From Imperialibacter sp. EC-SDR9 (GTDB lineage: Bacteria; Bacteroidota; Bacteroidia; Cytophagales; Cyclobacteriaceae), in assembly GCF_902498805.1 (NCBI RefSeq), contig NZ_LR701607.1:1-56993 (forward strand): DNA of 56,993 nt, written 5' to 3'. Position 1 is the first letter of the stretch. Each line of letters starts with the position of its first letter. A model generated the notes under the pieces. The model saw nothing but the letters and a program-made list of their open reading frames with translations, had not been told where the DNA came from and searched no databases. Position numbers and translations under genes: made by a program. Below are positions 52,087 through 56,993 of this stretch, piece after piece.

Positions 52087-53004
52087 CTACTTCTTTTCTG
52101 CTATCCTCAGCTTGGCACTTCGTGCCCGGCTGTTCCTGGCGATTTCATCGTCACCAGCTACTATCGGCTTCCTGTTCACAGGCTCCAGCGGCCTGATCAC
52201 ATTGCCATAAAAGTCTTTCTCATCCTTCCCTTCAAAGTTGCCTTTGTTGATGAAGTTCTTGGCCAGTCTGTCTTCCAGCGAGTGGTACGACATCACCACC
52301 AGCCTTCCACCCGGCTTCAGCACTTCAGCACATTGCCCCAGCATTTCCTCCAACACCTCCATCTCCTCGTTCACCTCCAGCCTGATGGCCTGAAACAGCT
52401 GAGCCAAAAACTTGGCTTCCTTTCCTCTGGGCGCAAACCTGGCTACCGCCTCCTTCAACTGCTCTATGGTCTCCAGCGGCTTGTTCACCCTATAGGCCGT
52501 AATGGCCCTTGCTATCTTCATGGGCTGGTTCAGCTCTCCGTACATGCCGAAGATCTTAGCCAGGTCCCTTTCTCCGTATTCATTCAGCACCTCTTTGGCC
52601 GACACCTCGCTGTTTACATTCATGCGCATGTCGAGTGGCCCCTGAAAGCGTGTACTGAAACCTCTTTCCGGCACATCGATCTGGTGCGACGAAATGCCCA
52701 GGTCGGCCAGAATCCCATCTACCGCCTGCACTCCATGGAACCTGAGGTACTTTTTCAGGTTGCGGAAATTGCTTGGCACAAATGTGAAAGAACGTTTGTC
52801 AAACCCTTCGGCATTGACTTTGGCATCAGCGTCCTGATCAAATCCATATAAGTGTCCGGTGGTAAGCTTTTCTACTATCGCTCTCGAATGTCCGCCGCCG
52901 CCGAAAGTCACATCGACATAAATACCGCCGGGTTGAATAGCCAACCCCTCCAGGCATTCTTTGAGCATCACCGGTATGTGGTAGTTTTCCTGGGCCATAG
53001 GCAT
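52087..53004 (-). CDS. rsmH: 16S rRNA (cytosine-1402-N4)-methyltransferase
   Basis: A 305-residue SAM-dependent enzyme that methylates N4 of C1402 in 16S rRNA. It starts MPMAQENYHIPVMLKECLEG, with the SAM loop DVTFGGGGHS at 31-40, DLGISSHQID near residue 108 and VMSYHSLEDRLAKNF near 235. The start could be 53004 or the second Met at 52998. The frame extends to 53094 but inside mraZ. It begins five bases after the mraZ stop, the second gene of the cluster. Confidence 0.96.
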   Translation of the reverse strand: MPMAQENYHIPVMLKECLEGLAIQPGGIYVDVTFGGGGHSRAIVEKLTTGHLYGFDQDADAKVNAEGFDKRSFTFVPSNFRNLKKYLRFHGVQAVDGILADLGISSHQIDVPERGFSTRFQGPLDMRMNVNSEVSAKEVLNEYGERDLAKIFGMYGELNQPMKIARAITAYRVNKPLETIEQLKEAVARFAPRGKEAKFLAQLFQAIRLEVNEEMEVLEEMLGQCAEVLKPGGRLVVMSYHSLEDRLAKNFINKGNFEGKDEKDFYGNVIRPLEPVNRKPIVAGDDEIARNSRARSAKLRIAEKK

Positions 53005-53009
53005 GTGGA

Positions 53010-53477
53010 TTATTCGTCCAGCAGCTTTTGCGCCAATTGAGAGTACTCTTCGGGATTGTTGATCAAATGCTTTTGATATACCCCAGGATCCCAAATCTCA
53101 ATGCTGGATCCCACTCCTACCACCATCGCCTCCTTTTCAAGAGAAGCGAATTTCATAAAGGTCTTAGGGATTAGTATTCGGCCAGCGCTGTCCATCTCTA
53201 TCTGGGCAATGCTTCGGAAAAAATTCCGCTTCAAGGCCCTGTTCTCAGGAAGAAATTCGTTGAGCGAAGAAATCTTCGACTGGATCTTTTTGAATTCACC
53301 CATTGGGTACAAGATCAGGTTAGGCTCAAATCCCATCCTCAGCACAAGCTCATTCGCCGGCTGACCGGGAGCAGACGCTCCGGGAGCTTCGGGAAGATTG
53401 ACCTTAATGCGGGCCGGAAGAACCAGCCTGCCCTTGGCATCAATCTTACATTCGAATTCGCTAGTAAAGAATGACAT
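53010..53477 (-). CDS. mraZ: Transcriptional regulator MraZ
   Basis: The 155-residue protein has two SpoVT/AbrB-like beta folds. The DNA-binding motif of the first domain is KIDAKGRLVLPARIK at 11-25, and the second has EMDSAGRILIPKTFM near 95-109. MraZ binds direct TGGGN repeats upstream of its own gene and regulates the dcw cluster. Such repeats are seen at 53542-53615. It is the first gene of the twelve-gene run. The residue spacing and length are normal, with a small Pro/Ala insert (PEAPGASAPGQPANE). Confidence 0.95.
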   Translation of the reverse strand: MSFFTSEFECKIDAKGRLVLPARIKVNLPEAPGASAPGQPANELVLRMGFEPNLILYPMGEFKKIQSKISSLNEFLPENRALKRNFFRSIAQIEMDSAGRILIPKTFMKFASLEKEAMVVGVGSSIEIWDPGVYQKHLINNPEEYSQLAQKLLDE

Positions 53478-53513
53478 AATGGATTACAGGAAAAACTACA
53501 GCAACACTTTCAA

Positions 53514-53542
53514 CAAATGTAATAAAATTATGACACTTCCAA
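53514..53542 (-). promoter_or_regulatory. Promoter of the mraZ/dcw operon
   Basis: On the minus strand TACATTTG (53514-53521) matches the Bacteroidota -7 box TAnnTTTG exactly. A TTGG element at 53539-53542, 17 bases further up, is in the -33 region. The -7 box lies 37 bases before the mraZ ATG. Confidence 0.6.
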
Positions 53543-53615
53543 CCACTCTCTCCCACTTTCTTACACTTTACTACTAAAAAAGAGAATATTTCCCACTTTT
53601 ACCCACTATCGACCA
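53542..53615 (-). promoter_or_regulatory. MraZ operator: five TGGK boxes in 10-bp phase
   Basis: On the minus strand TGGG or TGGT occurs at 53612-53615, 53602-53605, 53592-53595, 53552-53555 and 53542-53545. All five lie on one 10-base grid, with a 40-base gap between the groups. MraZ is known to bind TGGGN repeats with 10-base periodicity upstream of mraZ. The nearest box overlaps the -33 region, so bound MraZ could hinder polymerase. Confidence 0.6.
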
Positions 53616-53788
53616 CACAGTTTACCACCATGCGCATGTAATGAATGGGCGTCAAAGCGATAAAAAAGGCGGGAAACAGAAAATCAAATGCCTATTAACC
53701 AGCCAGATAAGGCTGGAATAATTGAAATTCCGGAGGAGCAAACGCAGGCTTGTGCCTACTCACGGCCCACGAGAAATGACGAAGAAAG

Positions 53789-53805
53789 TGGTGGGGGAAA
53801 GTGGG
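53789..53805 (+). promoter_or_regulatory. Second MraZ-like repeat pair, opposite orientation
   Basis: On the plus strand TGGT at 53789 and TGGG at 53792 and 53802 form a pair with the same 10-base period, embedded in AAAGTGGT and AAAGTGGGA words. It lies about 118 bases upstream of the phosphatase gene and 310 bases from mraZ. The rest of the 53616-53922 gap shows no gene. Confidence 0.3.
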
Positions 53806-53922
53806 AGGCACCAGCGACCATCGACTAAAAAATTGGCATTTGGCCGTTAACCGATGGTCAATTATTGAAGCAATTCACCGTTACTCTCCTTACCTTGTTA
53901 CTCCACTATTCGCTGAGTTGAT

Positions 53923-55143
53923 ATGAAAAATTTGCTGGTCTTTCTTGTGTTCATCATGGCTTCGGCCGATGCTTTTTCTCAAAAAGTGGTGTTTGTCATT
54001 ATCGACGGTGTAGAGGCAGAAATCTTCGAAAGGGTTGCCACTCCCAACATGGATGCCATCGCCAAAAGCGGCGGCTATACCCGAGCCTATGTGGGTGGTG
54101 AAAGAGGTGGCTATTCAGAGACTCCGACCATCTCAGCGCCTGGCTACAACAACCTCATTACCGGCACCTGGGGCAACAAACACAATGTGTGGGGCAATAG
54201 CATCAAAGCTCCCAACTACAACTACTGGTCAGCTTTCAGGTTCGTGGAAGAGCTCGCACCAGAGAAGGAAACGGCCATCTTTTCGACGTGGCTCGACAAC
54301 CGCACCAAGCTCGTAGGCGAAGGCCTGCAAGCCGCAGGAAATGTGATGATCGATTACCACTTTGATGGCTTTGAGCTAGACGAAAAAGCCTTCCCGCACG
54401 ACAAGGAGAGGCTGTTCATACACAATATAGACGAGCATGTAGTGAATGAAGCCAGCCGCTACATCAAAGAAAAAGGCCCCGACTTTTCGTGGGTGTACCT
54501 GGAGTATACCGACGACATGGGGCACGCCCACGGCAACAGCGAAAAGACCGATGAGGCCATTCGCATGGCAGACGAGCAGATGGGTAGCATCTGGGAAGCC
54601 GTTCAGTATCGGCAAAAAGAGAAAGACGAAGACTGGATGATATTCATTACCACTGACCATGGGCGCAGTGCAGAATCAGGTGGGAAAGATCACGGTGGAC
54701 AATCCGACAGGGAGCGCACCACCTGGATGGTAATGGGGGGAGGACAGCCCAATGCCTATTTCACCAAAGAACAGAACGCCATTGTGGACATTCTGCCGAC
54801 TGCTTTGCGTTTTATGGGAATTGAGCCAACAAAAGAAAGGATGTATGAGTTGGATGGAGTGCCACTGACGGGCCCTGTTTCGGTCTCTAACCCGGGTGCA
54901 ATATTGGCAGACAACAAAATCAAGGTCACCTGGAAGGCCATTGACCAAGCCGAAGAAGTGAAAATATCGCTGGCCACGACTAACAACTTTGAAACGGGTG
55001 GAACCGACACTTACACCCAGGTAGGGTCAGTGAAAGCAGGTAAAGAAGCCTTTGAAATAGACTTGAAGAAGTACCCATCTGACTTTTATAAAGTGGTGAT
55101 AGAGGGGAAGTACAATAGTGTGGGGAGGTGGGTGAAGAGGTAG
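53923..55143 (+). CDS. Secreted alkaline-phosphatase-superfamily phosphodiesterase
   Basis: A 406-residue protein with a signal peptide (LLVFLVFIMASADAFSQ). The alkaline-phosphatase fold is shown by metal and nucleophile motifs: VIIDGV (metal Asp), ETPTISAPGYNNLITG (Thr/Ser nucleophile), YTDDMGHAHG, ITTDHGRSAESGGKDHGG with metal ligands Asp-His and His. The family includes nucleotide pyrophosphatase/phosphodiesterases. The last 90 residues form a fibronectin-like beta domain (IKVTWKAIDQAEEVKISLATT pattern). The substrate is not known. It is the last chromosomal-type gene before the cassette-like region. Confidence 0.85.
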   Translation: MKNLLVFLVFIMASADAFSQKVVFVIIDGVEAEIFERVATPNMDAIAKSGGYTRAYVGGERGGYSETPTISAPGYNNLITGTWGNKHNVWGNSIKAPNYNYWSAFRFVEELAPEKETAIFSTWLDNRTKLVGEGLQAAGNVMIDYHFDGFELDEKAFPHDKERLFIHNIDEHVVNEASRYIKEKGPDFSWVYLEYTDDMGHAHGNSEKTDEAIRMADEQMGSIWEAVQYRQKEKDEDWMIFITTDHGRSAESGGKDHGGQSDRERTTWMVMGGGQPNAYFTKEQNAIVDILPTALRFMGIEPTKERMYELDGVPLTGPVSVSNPGAILADNKIKVTWKAIDQAEEVKISLATTNNFETGGTDTYTQVGSVKAGKEAFEIDLKKYPSDFYKVVIEGKYNSVGRWVKR

Positions 55144-55162
55144 GCGGCGCCGCTTTCATCAC

Positions 55163-55220
55163 AACGTTTCAATACAATGCCGCAGGCTGAGCGCAGCAAG
55201 GAATTATTCGAATGTTATAC
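55163..55220 (+). other. Possible first cassette boundary
   Basis: An AAC (55163-55165) faces the GTT of GTTATAC at 55214-55220, and the bases between carry a GC-rich mini-hairpin (GCTG-AGCG-CAGC at 55187-55198). This resembles a boundary site, but the left partner sequence has no match further up that I can find. It could equally be the array's entry site. Confidence 0.3.
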
Positions 55221-55340
55221 GCATAATATGGGTTCACAAACGGATAAATTATCTTTATTGGGTTTATTTAGACATTTTAATTAATACCTTGACCGGTAGA
55301 TATAATGGGTATAACACGCACTAGTGCGTGTTACTCAATG
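55215..55340 (+). mobile_element. Cassette-like unit 0 (126 bases, no gene)
   Basis: It starts after a G with TTATACGCATAATATGGG and ends before GTTATAG. Its right side has GTATAAC at 55309-55315, the exact inverse of its own GTTATAC start at 55214-55220. The match extends to 14 of 17 bases outward (GTTATACGCATAATATG against GTTATACCCATTATATC). The inside is AT-rich with no coding frame. Confidence 0.55.
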
Positions 55341-55346
55341 TTATAG
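55309..55346 (+). repeat. Short attC-like site with a 22-bp perfect palindrome
   Basis: Between GTATAAC (55309-55315) and GTTATAG (55340-55346) lies the perfect 22-base palindrome at 55312-55333, whose core is CACGCACTAGTGCGTG. As a single strand it would fold into a stem. At 38 bases it is shorter than usual attC sites. Confidence 0.5.
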
Positions 55347-55764
55347 TGAAGGACTGCGGGACTTGACTACAGATACGGATAGAAAAAGAGAGCGGCCTTT
55401 CTCAGCTGCTTGCAAACATTGGTGAAACTTTCTGTCGACCCCTTGGAGGCAGCAAAAAATAGACGCCTACGGATGTCAGGATTTGCTGCGGCTCGACTTG
55501 CCACTTCCGACGGACCAGACCGACGCAGGATTCAGCGGTACTCCATGGATTTGATGTCTGGGCAGGCGGACGACCTGGCGGACGGACAGACGGGCAGACG
55601 GAAAATCACTATAACACAAGGCTAAAGCGAATGCGGGCCTCGCTGGTTTTCGGTCGTAGTTTGGCTTGGATTGTCCGCCACAAAGTATAATTTTATCATC
55701 GGCGTGGCTAAGTGATAGTGGAAAGGGAGCTGCATTGCACTCCCACACTCGCCTTAGCCGAGCG
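55341..55764 (+). mobile_element. Cassette-like unit 1 (424 bases, no convincing gene)
   Basis: The unit starts GTTATAGTG (55340-55348), and the exact inverse CACTATAAC stands at 55607-55615 at the start of its own 3' site. The payload 55349-55606 has an open frame from a TTG at 55410 to 55625, but the frame is repeat-rich (GGCGGACGGACAGACGG) with no start signal or motif, so I do not call it a gene. It may be a non-coding or decayed cassette. Confidence 0.55.
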
Positions 55765-55770
55765 TTGGCA
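55607..55770 (+). repeat. Long attC-like site A
   Basis: The site runs from CACTATAAC to GTTGGCA. It folds: AAC pairs with GTT, GGCTAA (55620-55625) pairs with TTAGCC (55754-55759), and GCGAATGCGGG (55627-55637) pairs with CCCACACTCGC (55742-55752) in 9 of 11 positions. The centre has a 45-base block (55662-55706) which recurs at 56745-56789 with a single mismatch. Confidence 0.65.
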
Positions 55771-55785
55771 TGCATAGACTGCGTG

Positions 55786-56226
55786 ATGAAAAAAATTCTA
55801 CCTCTTCTGTTCATGGTTATCTCGATTGCTTGCGGAGCTGGCAAGGATTCCCGTCCACAGACTCCTCTCAGAATAGACGCTCCTTTGTTATCAGAGTTTT
55901 CGACAAACAATAGTGATCTTACAAGGGCACTCGATCAGATTATTACTTACCTGGACTCGAAAAATGCGCCAACGGACAGCCTGTATTTGACGGACTACCA
56001 AACGGACTCAATTCCGTGGGCTTTTAGAATTGATCATTACAGAGCTTTTGTAGAACAAGATAAATTTGACAGAGAAATGGCTAAAGAGGATTCTCTTAGG
56101 CAGCTACCCTCTGGGGGACGGGGCGAAATAGTCTATGTTCCTAAGTCGGGCAATCAAAGTGGACATGATCGTTGGATCACCTACAATCCGAAGACAAGTG
56201 AAATTAATGACTATCTAGACCAGTAG
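55786..56226 (+). CDS. Hypothetical lipoprotein in cassette-like unit 2
   Basis: The 146-residue product has a lipoprotein signal (MKKILPLLFMVISIAC, lipobox SIAC). The mature part is acidic with a helical segment (LTRALDQIITYLDSK) and ends with a Gly/Ser-rich loop (LPSGGRGEIVYVPKSGNQSG) before NPKTSEINDYLDQ. I do not recognise the family. The frame is also open upstream to 55666, but that runs into the boundary site, so the ATG at 55786 is right. The next gene starts nine bases after its stop. Confidence 0.7.
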   Translation: MKKILPLLFMVISIACGAGKDSRPQTPLRIDAPLLSEFSTNNSDLTRALDQIITYLDSKNAPTDSLYLTDYQTDSIPWAFRIDHYRAFVEQDKFDREMAKEDSLRQLPSGGRGEIVYVPKSGNQSGHDRWITYNPKTSEINDYLDQ

Positions 56227-56235
56227 CCGCAAGAA

Positions 56236-56685
56236 ATGACGTCTTCTGTTAAAAAAGAAAATCGCAATTATGAGCTTTCGGATATCTACTCCCTAATCCG
56301 TGACTTCATTTCGAATGAACCCATCAATCCAAACACTGACATCTTCAAAGATTTGTGGTTAGTAGGTGATGATTTTCATGAGCTAATTGAGGGATATGCA
56401 AAAAAGTTTGATGTGGATATGACCAGTTATTTGTGGTATTTTCATGCCGACGAAGAAGGCCATAATTTTCCGGGTGGACTTTTCTCAGCGCCTCCATATG
56501 AACGAGTCAAGCGAATACCAGTGACTCCCGAACTTCTGCTCGAATTTGCTCGAACTGGGCTTTGGAACTTCCCCTACCCAGAGCATTCAATTCCGAAACG
56601 GAGGTACGACTTGCTGATCAATTCCGGCTTTTTCTGGCTGATAGTTGTTCTGATTGTCTTGAGCTTGTTAATCTGGCGGATTTGA
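56236..56685 (+). CDS. DUF1493-like protein with C-terminal membrane helix
   Basis: The 149-residue protein has an acyl-carrier-like N-terminal fold with the pattern DIFKDLWLVGDDFHELIEGY, YAKKFDVDM and a following YLWYFHADEE, as seen in DUF1493 proteins. The phosphopantetheine serine is replaced by Asp (GDD). The C-terminus is one membrane helix (FFWLIVVLIVLSLLIW, residues 132-147). The function is unknown. Together with the lipoprotein it makes a two-gene cargo that could act at the cell envelope. Confidence 0.65.
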   Translation: MTSSVKKENRNYELSDIYSLIRDFISNEPINPNTDIFKDLWLVGDDFHELIEGYAKKFDVDMTSYLWYFHADEEGHNFPGGLFSAPPYERVKRIPVTPELLLEFARTGLWNFPYPEHSIPKRRYDLLINSGFFWLIVVLIVLSLLIWRI

Positions 56686-56687
56686 AA

Positions 56688-56873
56688 GCATGCCAACACA
56701 GCGGTAAAAATGAATGTGGGCTTCAGCAGTTATCAAAGGTCAGATGGCTTGGATTGTCCGCCACAAATTATAATTTTATCATCGGCGTGCCTGCCTGTCG
56801 GCAGACAGGGCTAAGATGTAGTGGAAGCGGAGCTGCATAAAACTCCCACACTCATTTTACCGAGGCGTTGAAC
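56688..56873 (+). repeat. Long attC-like site B
   Basis: The site runs from GCATGCCAAC to GTTGAAC. CGGTAAAA and onward (56702-56720) pairs with the right arm ending TTTTACCG (56845-56862) in 17 of 18 positions with one bulged A. The stem sequence differs from site A, but pairing is retained. The inner 45-base block is nearly the same as in A, and 20 extra bases (56790-56809) with a CCTGTC/GACAGG hairpin are present only in B. Confidence 0.65.
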
Positions 56874-56993
56874 GAAACCTCCTTACGGAGGTAGCTTTTC
56901 GAAATCCGTATCTTGAAGTGAATCATCAAACTTCAAATGTTATGAAAAAAAAGAAAAGCTAAGCCAGCGGTTCGTTCGTGAGTTGACCTTCCG
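56868..56993 (+). mobile_element. Start of cassette-like unit 3, cut by window edge
   Basis: The unit starts G/TTGAACGAAACC (56867-56879). A hairpin ACCTCC-TTAC-GGAGGT (56877-56892) and another, TTGAAGT/ACTTCAA (56913-56936), follow. Near the end, GGTTCGTTC (56970-56978) is close to the inverse of its start but is not exact. No gene is visible up to the edge. Confidence 0.45.

Follow-up and report, generated by a model that had tools for sequence, protein, structure and literature searches.

In integrons, the end of an attC site complements the first bases of its own cassette, not those of the next cassette. Chromosomal integrons place a tyrosine recombinase beside an attachment site and a long one-way array of small ORF cassettes, with own-start complementarity, breakpoints between G and TT, palindromic sites and integrase-free satellite arrays, and the system described here resembles them in all of these respects. 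It differs from them in that the enzyme has no IntI insert, scores under the cut-off of the IntI model and falls into a separate clade, in that cores rarely read GTTRRRY, and in that a Zn-ribbon gene is conserved and palindromic docking sites occur at several places of the genome. With clusters of attC sites lacking an integrase (CALIN), the array studied here shares the lack of an integrase on its contig, but it begins at an attI-like site and an integrase is coded elsewhere in the same genome. XerA, XerC and XerD share with the present enzyme the catalytic residues and the absence of the I2 region, and its best structural matches are XerA-like, whereas Xer proteins form a clade of their own and four Xer loci carry no chain of units above length 1.

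A passage of PMC7790495 presents the I2 helix as the key innovation enabling recombination of folded single strands and states that it is absent from any other protein, and an excerpt of PMC9668308 calls the additional domain IntI-specific. As described in part of PMC2426708, IntI was selected by the additional domain or patch, and hence I2-less enzymes would have been excluded by that selection. A section of PMC8138268 reports that the insert is not fully conserved in an 'integron-like' subgroup of simple tyrosine recombinases; in that section, no cassette arrays are assigned to the insert-less members. Bacteroidota are listed among the integron-bearing phyla in a passage of PMC8618304, and the relevant portion of a 2022 survey with the standard finder (PMC9024848) gives one complete integron for Bacteroidetes proper, in Salinibacter ruber. 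In our own phylum sample, a canonical IntI over the cut-off was found in 84 of 296 genomes, and among 86 listed genomes with an IntI match one was marked as belonging to the class of the genome studied here. A search of titles and abstract openings in the open literature, a scope that leaves subscription papers and preprints outside, returned none describing the present system, which may be in print elsewhere.

Here we analyse a stretch of 56,993 nucleotides (the window), which is the entire contig C19 of a 6.8-Mb draft genome. The nearest named relatives of the recombinase of this genome, MAGs of Flammeovirgaceae and Cyclobacteriaceae, place the host in Bacteroidota. Judged from sequence, the window very probably carries a satellite array of cassettes belonging to an integron-like system of gene capture, the recombinase of which would be coded elsewhere in the genome.

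Layout of the window and its docking site

The window contains one attI-like docking site, two complete cassettes and the start of a third, at which the array runs into the contig end (Table 1). No Rfam family matched within 53000-56993, and the 146-aa ORF of cassette 2 matched no Pfam or PHROG family. The attC-like sites of the two cassettes were matched by the site profile at 55613-55766 (E 1e-42, this site being itself in the profile seed) and at 56695-56869 (E 3e-46).

Table 1. Features of the window and of the related loci (G000, the window's own genome; G001, a genome of the same genus, sister species; C-numbers, contigs of G000; L-numbers, fetched loci used for coordinates; positions with neither prefix refer to the window)
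Feature	Position	Strand	Remarks
Phosphodiesterase-like gene, upstream flank, outside the cassettes	53923..55143	+	PF01663, E 5.8e-17; G001 ortholog with 83% DNA identity
Leader before the docking site	55203..55312	+	Sequence matches; contains GTTATAC of the first unit initially proposed
attI-like docking site	55313..55342	+	20-bp palindrome AACACGCACTAGTGCGTGTT at 55313-55332, 7 nt, core GTT at 55340-55342
Cassette 1, 424 nt, no convincing gene	55341..55764	+	Starts TTATAGTG behind G; outer arm of own site CACTATAAC
attC-like site of cassette 1	55607..55766	+	Profile; outer arm 55607-55615, core GTT 55764-55766
Cassette 2, 1103 nt	55765..56867	+	Starts TTGGCATGC behind G; outer arm GCATGCCAAC; 10-base match
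ORF in cassette 2, 146 aa	55786..56226	+	Signal- or lipoprotein-like by eye
ORF in cassette 2, 149 aa, DUF1493	56236..56685	+	PF07377, 30.4 bits, cut-off 21
attC-like site of cassette 2	56688..56869	+	Outer arm 56688-56697, core GTT 56867-56869, 20-nt insert
Start of cassette 3, 126 nt	56868..56993	+	Cut by contig end
Recombinase homolog in G000	C23:54904-56034		74% identity to the G001 enzyme
Second recombinase in G000, 321 aa	C20:65909-66874		49% identity
Zn-ribbon genes, upstream of recombinase	L072:4434-4820; L078:15811-16239; L058:5459-5872	-	

The initial annotation had proposed three consecutive units, each ending in a reverse copy of its own first bases, and all three matches are present: GTTATAC at 55214 with GTATAAC at 55309-55315, GTTATAGTG at 55340 with CACTATAAC at 55607-55615, and GTTGGCATGC at 55764 with GCATGCCAAC at 56688-56697. 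The second and third matches mark cassette boundaries. The first delimits no cassette, and the count becomes two complete cassettes and a partial third, the first 'unit' being the leader together with the attI-like docking site. That unit was rejected as a cassette because GTATAAC sits in an attI-like palindrome which also lies directly behind the C23 recombinase gene, and because GTTATAC is missing from the aligned leader position of the sister species. The statement that the window holds no integrase was borne out, as no tyrosine recombinase matched on its contig; the recombinase expected beside the array was found on contigs other than the window's, beside the arrays on C23, on C20 and in G001.

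Docking sites recur in both genomes. A core and a palindrome follow just behind the recombinase gene on C23, on C20 and in G001, on C23 directly behind it, and the C23 palindrome is also present in the window, on C38 and on C17, and one base shorter on C52; on these last four contigs, the window's included, no tyrosine recombinase was matched. Since several docking sites are present in the genome, one enzyme probably serves several arrays. The leader of the window matches G001:571933-572074 and C38:125-245 over most of its length and also aligns with G001 at 4220.9 kb. The window docking site and one site of G001 both lie behind the same phosphodiesterase gene, the G001 ortholog being followed by the aligned leader and palindrome, and the C38 docking site and another G001 site both lie behind one other common gene. 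At such orthologous docking sites, gene ends, leaders and palindromes align and the sequence that follows differs, which is the outcome of the comparison between strains that had been suggested.

Behind the palindromes of C38 and C52, one common sequence without a GTT core extends up to the contig end (L229:1-150 and L230:1-150); this is perhaps an element that targets the palindrome. The sequence at the start of cassette 3 recurs after the C23 docking site and after a site on C20. Contigs C19, C20 and C23 all end at one point inside this shared cassette (56868-56993), as a multi-copy cassette that breaks the assembly would explain.

Cassette boundaries and attC-like sites

The two long sites of the window are homologues of one another (78% over 86 nt, 76% over 62 nt). 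The initial annotation had called for a search for further sites in the genome, and one of the two, site B, has 32 matches on 11 contigs of G000, itself included. In a DNA search of 29 genomes, the own one among them, matches were confined to G000 and G001, the latter with at least 28, and the other 27 genomes gave no match at DNA level. A profile search of G001 found 44 sites in one direction at 868.4-908.0 kb, behind a tyrosine recombinase gene, with two weak partial matches past 908.0 kb and smaller groups of sites near 570, 3778 and 4222 kb.

The own-start rule was measured on 77 neighbouring site pairs of the two genomes, of which 66 had both cores readable and 11 were unreadable. Over the 66 cassettes, the exact match between the outer arm of a site and the start of its own cassette (GTT included) averaged 8.86 bases. 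With the core that follows, measurable in 56 cases, the average was 4.23 bases, and under random pairing it was 4.04; none of 20,000 shuffles attained the observed sum; copies of the same cassette are among the pairs, and these are thus not all independent. Own starts were matched by 9-10 bases in 57 of the 66, and the rule was broken in the other nine (3-7 bases). Moreover, 15 pairs of near-identical cassettes in eight families match over exactly TT...G, 14 of them inside G001 at 97-100% and one between G000 and G001 at 94%. The 40 bases past GTT are only 17-40% identical in these pairs, with the break exactly at GTT. Movement as exact unit spans, which had been named as a check, is supported by cassettes that recur exactly before different neighbours.

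An alignment of 32 sites, 30 from G001 and the two from the window, has 25 predicted pairs, 10 of them with changes on both sides, and 97.0% of the cells in the stem are paired. The covariation score of this inner stem was 0.276 against 0.083 in shuffles, none of 500 being as high, and at most 0.060 when partners were slid. Pairs with double changes are less striking, with 10 against 7.7 in shuffles, a number reached by 16 of the 500. Folded alone, site B was no more stable than shuffles on either strand; the array partner of its outer arm is the far end of the cassette, which lay outside the folded stretch. The 20-nt insert in the site of cassette 2, GCCTGCCTGTCGGCAGACAG at 56792-56811, is palindromic and missing from the other 31 aligned sites.

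Cores were said to lie mostly off the GTTRRRY consensus, and this applies widely: 7 of 76 cores fit in the two genomes, and 11 of 174 in 29 relatives, in which GTT itself was a requirement of the core search. Judged from the letters, the cassettes follow the rule of integrons, and the tests that define IntI integrons fail. The suggestion of a divergent cassette-exchange system in Bacteroidota is supported by the further sites, the adjoining recombinase and the recurrence of exact spans.

A recombinase without the I2 region

The G001 recombinase has 376 aa. From its stop codon it is about 45 nt to the first core, GTTAGAGCC, whose match is GGCTCTAAC of the first site. On C20, the enzyme gene is followed by a palindrome-like stretch, the core GTTACCCTC and a cassette ending in GAGGGTAAC; this enzyme is without most of the N-terminal domain. 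With the integron integrase model TIGR02249, the two G000 enzymes score 207.7 and 206.8 bits, below the cut-off of 265, and the middle of the model was unmatched. With NF040815 of NCBIfam, named site-specific tyrosine recombinase/integron integrase, the C23 enzyme passes (231 bits, cut-off 220) and the C20 enzyme fails (214.5); hence, annotation may already label such proteins integron integrase.

When aligned to the solved IntI 2a3v, 61 IntI residues stand opposite 18, and the recombinase is without an IntI insert of about 42 residues (I2 region). Across 121 aligned proteins, the spacing between the catalytic Lys and His has a median of 64 and is at most 65 in 84 Bacteroidota rows (one row being without letters there), against 106 in all 31 IntI and 68-72 in four Xer proteins. 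Each of the six catalytic positions is conserved in 81-83 of these 84 rows, and the remainder are gaps. A tree built from 38 of the proteins after removal of the I2 columns separates IntI (100/100) from the Bacteroidota enzymes (18 rows, 99/98) and both from Xer (100/100), and the grouping is the same with the I2 columns kept; the recombinase is placed outside the IntI clade and apart from the four Xer rows, two of which are long branches. By these measures the enzyme is not a standard IntI, having a clade of its own, no I2 region and a Zn-ribbon gene alongside.

The best solved-structure matches are XerA-like (4a8e, 5hxy). For the N-terminal ~100 residues, no covering Pfam family was evident among 25 of 42 weak families listed and the best solved-structure match had an E of 0.35; this part may resemble a HARP domain. 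In a phage collection, 1128 records match the recombinase, all below 60% identity. A grouping with two Rhizobiaceae recombinases was not rejected (AU p 0.249), and the recombinase group of a Rhizobium Ti plasmid may stand near the root of these enzymes; the related recombinase on the Ti plasmid (L200:3043-5098) is annotated next to an IS91-family transposase.

These data bear on the explanation that the system descends from a canonical integron through degeneration of its IntI and loss of I2, and that its arrays are inert remnants of the CALIN kind. Such a descent would agree with the score of 207 bits to the integron integrase model, with a possible position of IntI as sister of the Bacteroidota enzymes (88/29), with the absence of any canonical IntI over the cut-off in the genome and with the likeness of satellite arrays to CALIN, but we consider it highly improbable, given that the Bacteroidota enzymes retain the catalytic residues and fall into a supported clade of their own, and that the near-identical cassettes show recent movement.

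Arrays behind related recombinases

A scan of genome contigs returned 409 stretches that encode relatives of the recombinase. By record titles, the best 80 of these are all from Bacteroidota, mostly Flavobacteriaceae, with some Cytophagales (Cyclobacteriaceae, Marivirga, Fulvivirga), Crocinitomicaceae and one MAG labelled Bacteroidales. The attC profile of the own genus matched in only one of the 80 (L143), so site sequences vary between lineages and the rule is kept. Chains of units with exact 9-base own-start matches were searched free of any model in the 45 relatives that remained when the 35 with less than 1200 nt behind the gene were left out. Downstream of the gene, chains of three or more occur in 29 of the 45 and chains of two or more in 36, and 16 have no chain of three. 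Upstream, in control stretches at most as long and shorter at several loci, the corresponding numbers are 0 and 5. The best of five shuffles gave three or more in 2 of 45 and two or more in 18, and some short chains may accordingly be due to chance; a control on the reverse complement is void because the definition of a chain is symmetric. The distance from the gene to the chain is about 31-67 nt in 22 of these 29 loci and larger in the other seven, of which four length-3 chains starting kilobases away may have arisen by chance. By titles, and for some genera by their usual family placement, 28 of the 29 are Flavobacteriaceae and one is Fulvivirga, a cytophagalean.

As a positive control, canonical IntI loci had chains of three or more in four of eight cases. 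Relatives, too, often have a palindrome behind the gene, e.g. ATAAACTCCCTTAGGGAGTTTAT and CCAATT before the core; of 32 loci chosen by hand, 17 show perfect arms of at least 8, a count taken without control.

Among 395 genomes of the class, the own one included, 101 match the recombinase group at E <= 1e-90, and a large pool of mobile genes may hence have gone uncounted. Of these matches 17 score above 540 bits and the others 304-396, the lower-scoring part being mixed and partly without a link to arrays. From 28 hand-picked class loci, 24 had at least 1200 nt, and 12 of the 24 carried chains of three or more (without control); these 12 come from both score ranges, and one (L263) has odd cores. 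The recombinase family is not definable by score alone.

Of the 76 relatives with enough upstream sequence for the search, 74 have a divergent gene for a Zn-ribbon protein of ~130 aa, which is read from the opposite strand and lies at most 2.5 kb upstream of the recombinase. CxxC motifs were seen by eye, and no match was found in Pfam, NCBIfam or (for one copy) PHROG. The protein is a candidate regulator or accessory factor. An HU-like gene (PF18291) lies upstream near the recombinase copies of G001 and C20, and it was rejected as part of the general system, as a two-sequence profile matched in 0 of the 76 relatives.

Two further explanations can be weighed against these arrays. The units might be blocks of genes that homologous recombination has copied from one repeated intergenic hairpin to another, with no site-specific step. 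In favour of this, the sites are alike enough to recombine and several cassettes are exact copies; we nevertheless give it almost no credence, because those bases of the core which are complementary to the far end are not part of the repeat and vary between cassettes, the breaks fall at GTT and not within the repeat, and one recombinase type precedes arrays in relatives with differing site sequences. That a real cassette system is driven by another cell recombinase of the Xer type, with the adjacent enzyme a passenger, is just as hard to believe, since the other tyrosine recombinases that the genome does hold (C23:23388 and C27) have no chain above length 1 at 9-base matches, nor do any of four Xer loci, and adjacent enzyme, docking site and arrays go together in relatives.

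For the favoured explanation, an integron-like system with a satellite array in the window, the recombinase on C23, and the second one on C20, would act from other contigs. A free circular cassette would be captured when the enzyme joins its folded attC-like site to the palindromic docking site of attI type, the cut being placed between G and TT of the core. After such a cut, one end of the cassette would carry its first bases, and the site at the opposite end would carry their complement. Of the several docking sites, one lies beside the C23 integrase and others beside host genes. We infer the recombination itself, its catalysis by this enzyme, a single folded strand as its substrate, the use of docking sites in trans and any contribution of the Zn-ribbon protein.

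A broader proposal, for which we see the chances as evenly balanced, is that gene-cassette capture through folded sites extends beyond IntI to a separate I2-less lineage of tyrosine recombinases in Bacteroidota, as an independent invention or a pre-I2 state. This lineage would have a Zn-ribbon protein as its dedicated partner and would use several fixed attI-like sites in some species, so that one integrase would feed distributed arrays. Cassette arrays behind an I2-less enzyme would make the claim that I2 is essential directly testable, and would offer a natural comparison for how integrons arose.

Concerning cassette content, 49 distinct cassettes (some being near-copies) were compared: the longest ORF follows the orientation of the array in 45 and is reversed in two, and two have no ORF of 50 aa. 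Of the array-oriented ORFs, 25 of 45 start within 40 nt of the cassette start. By eye, many cassette proteins are of small secreted, lipoprotein or membrane type, and 2 of 10 tested had a Pfam family over the cut-off (DUF1493 and AbiJ_NTD4). The latter cassette gene (L060:846-1697) has an AbiJ N-terminal domain (PF18863, E 8e-27), which is known from phage abortive infection. In G001, a long span resembling a cassette (L085:10376-13325) encodes what by eye seems to be an IS256-type transposase, and thus elements land inside arrays.
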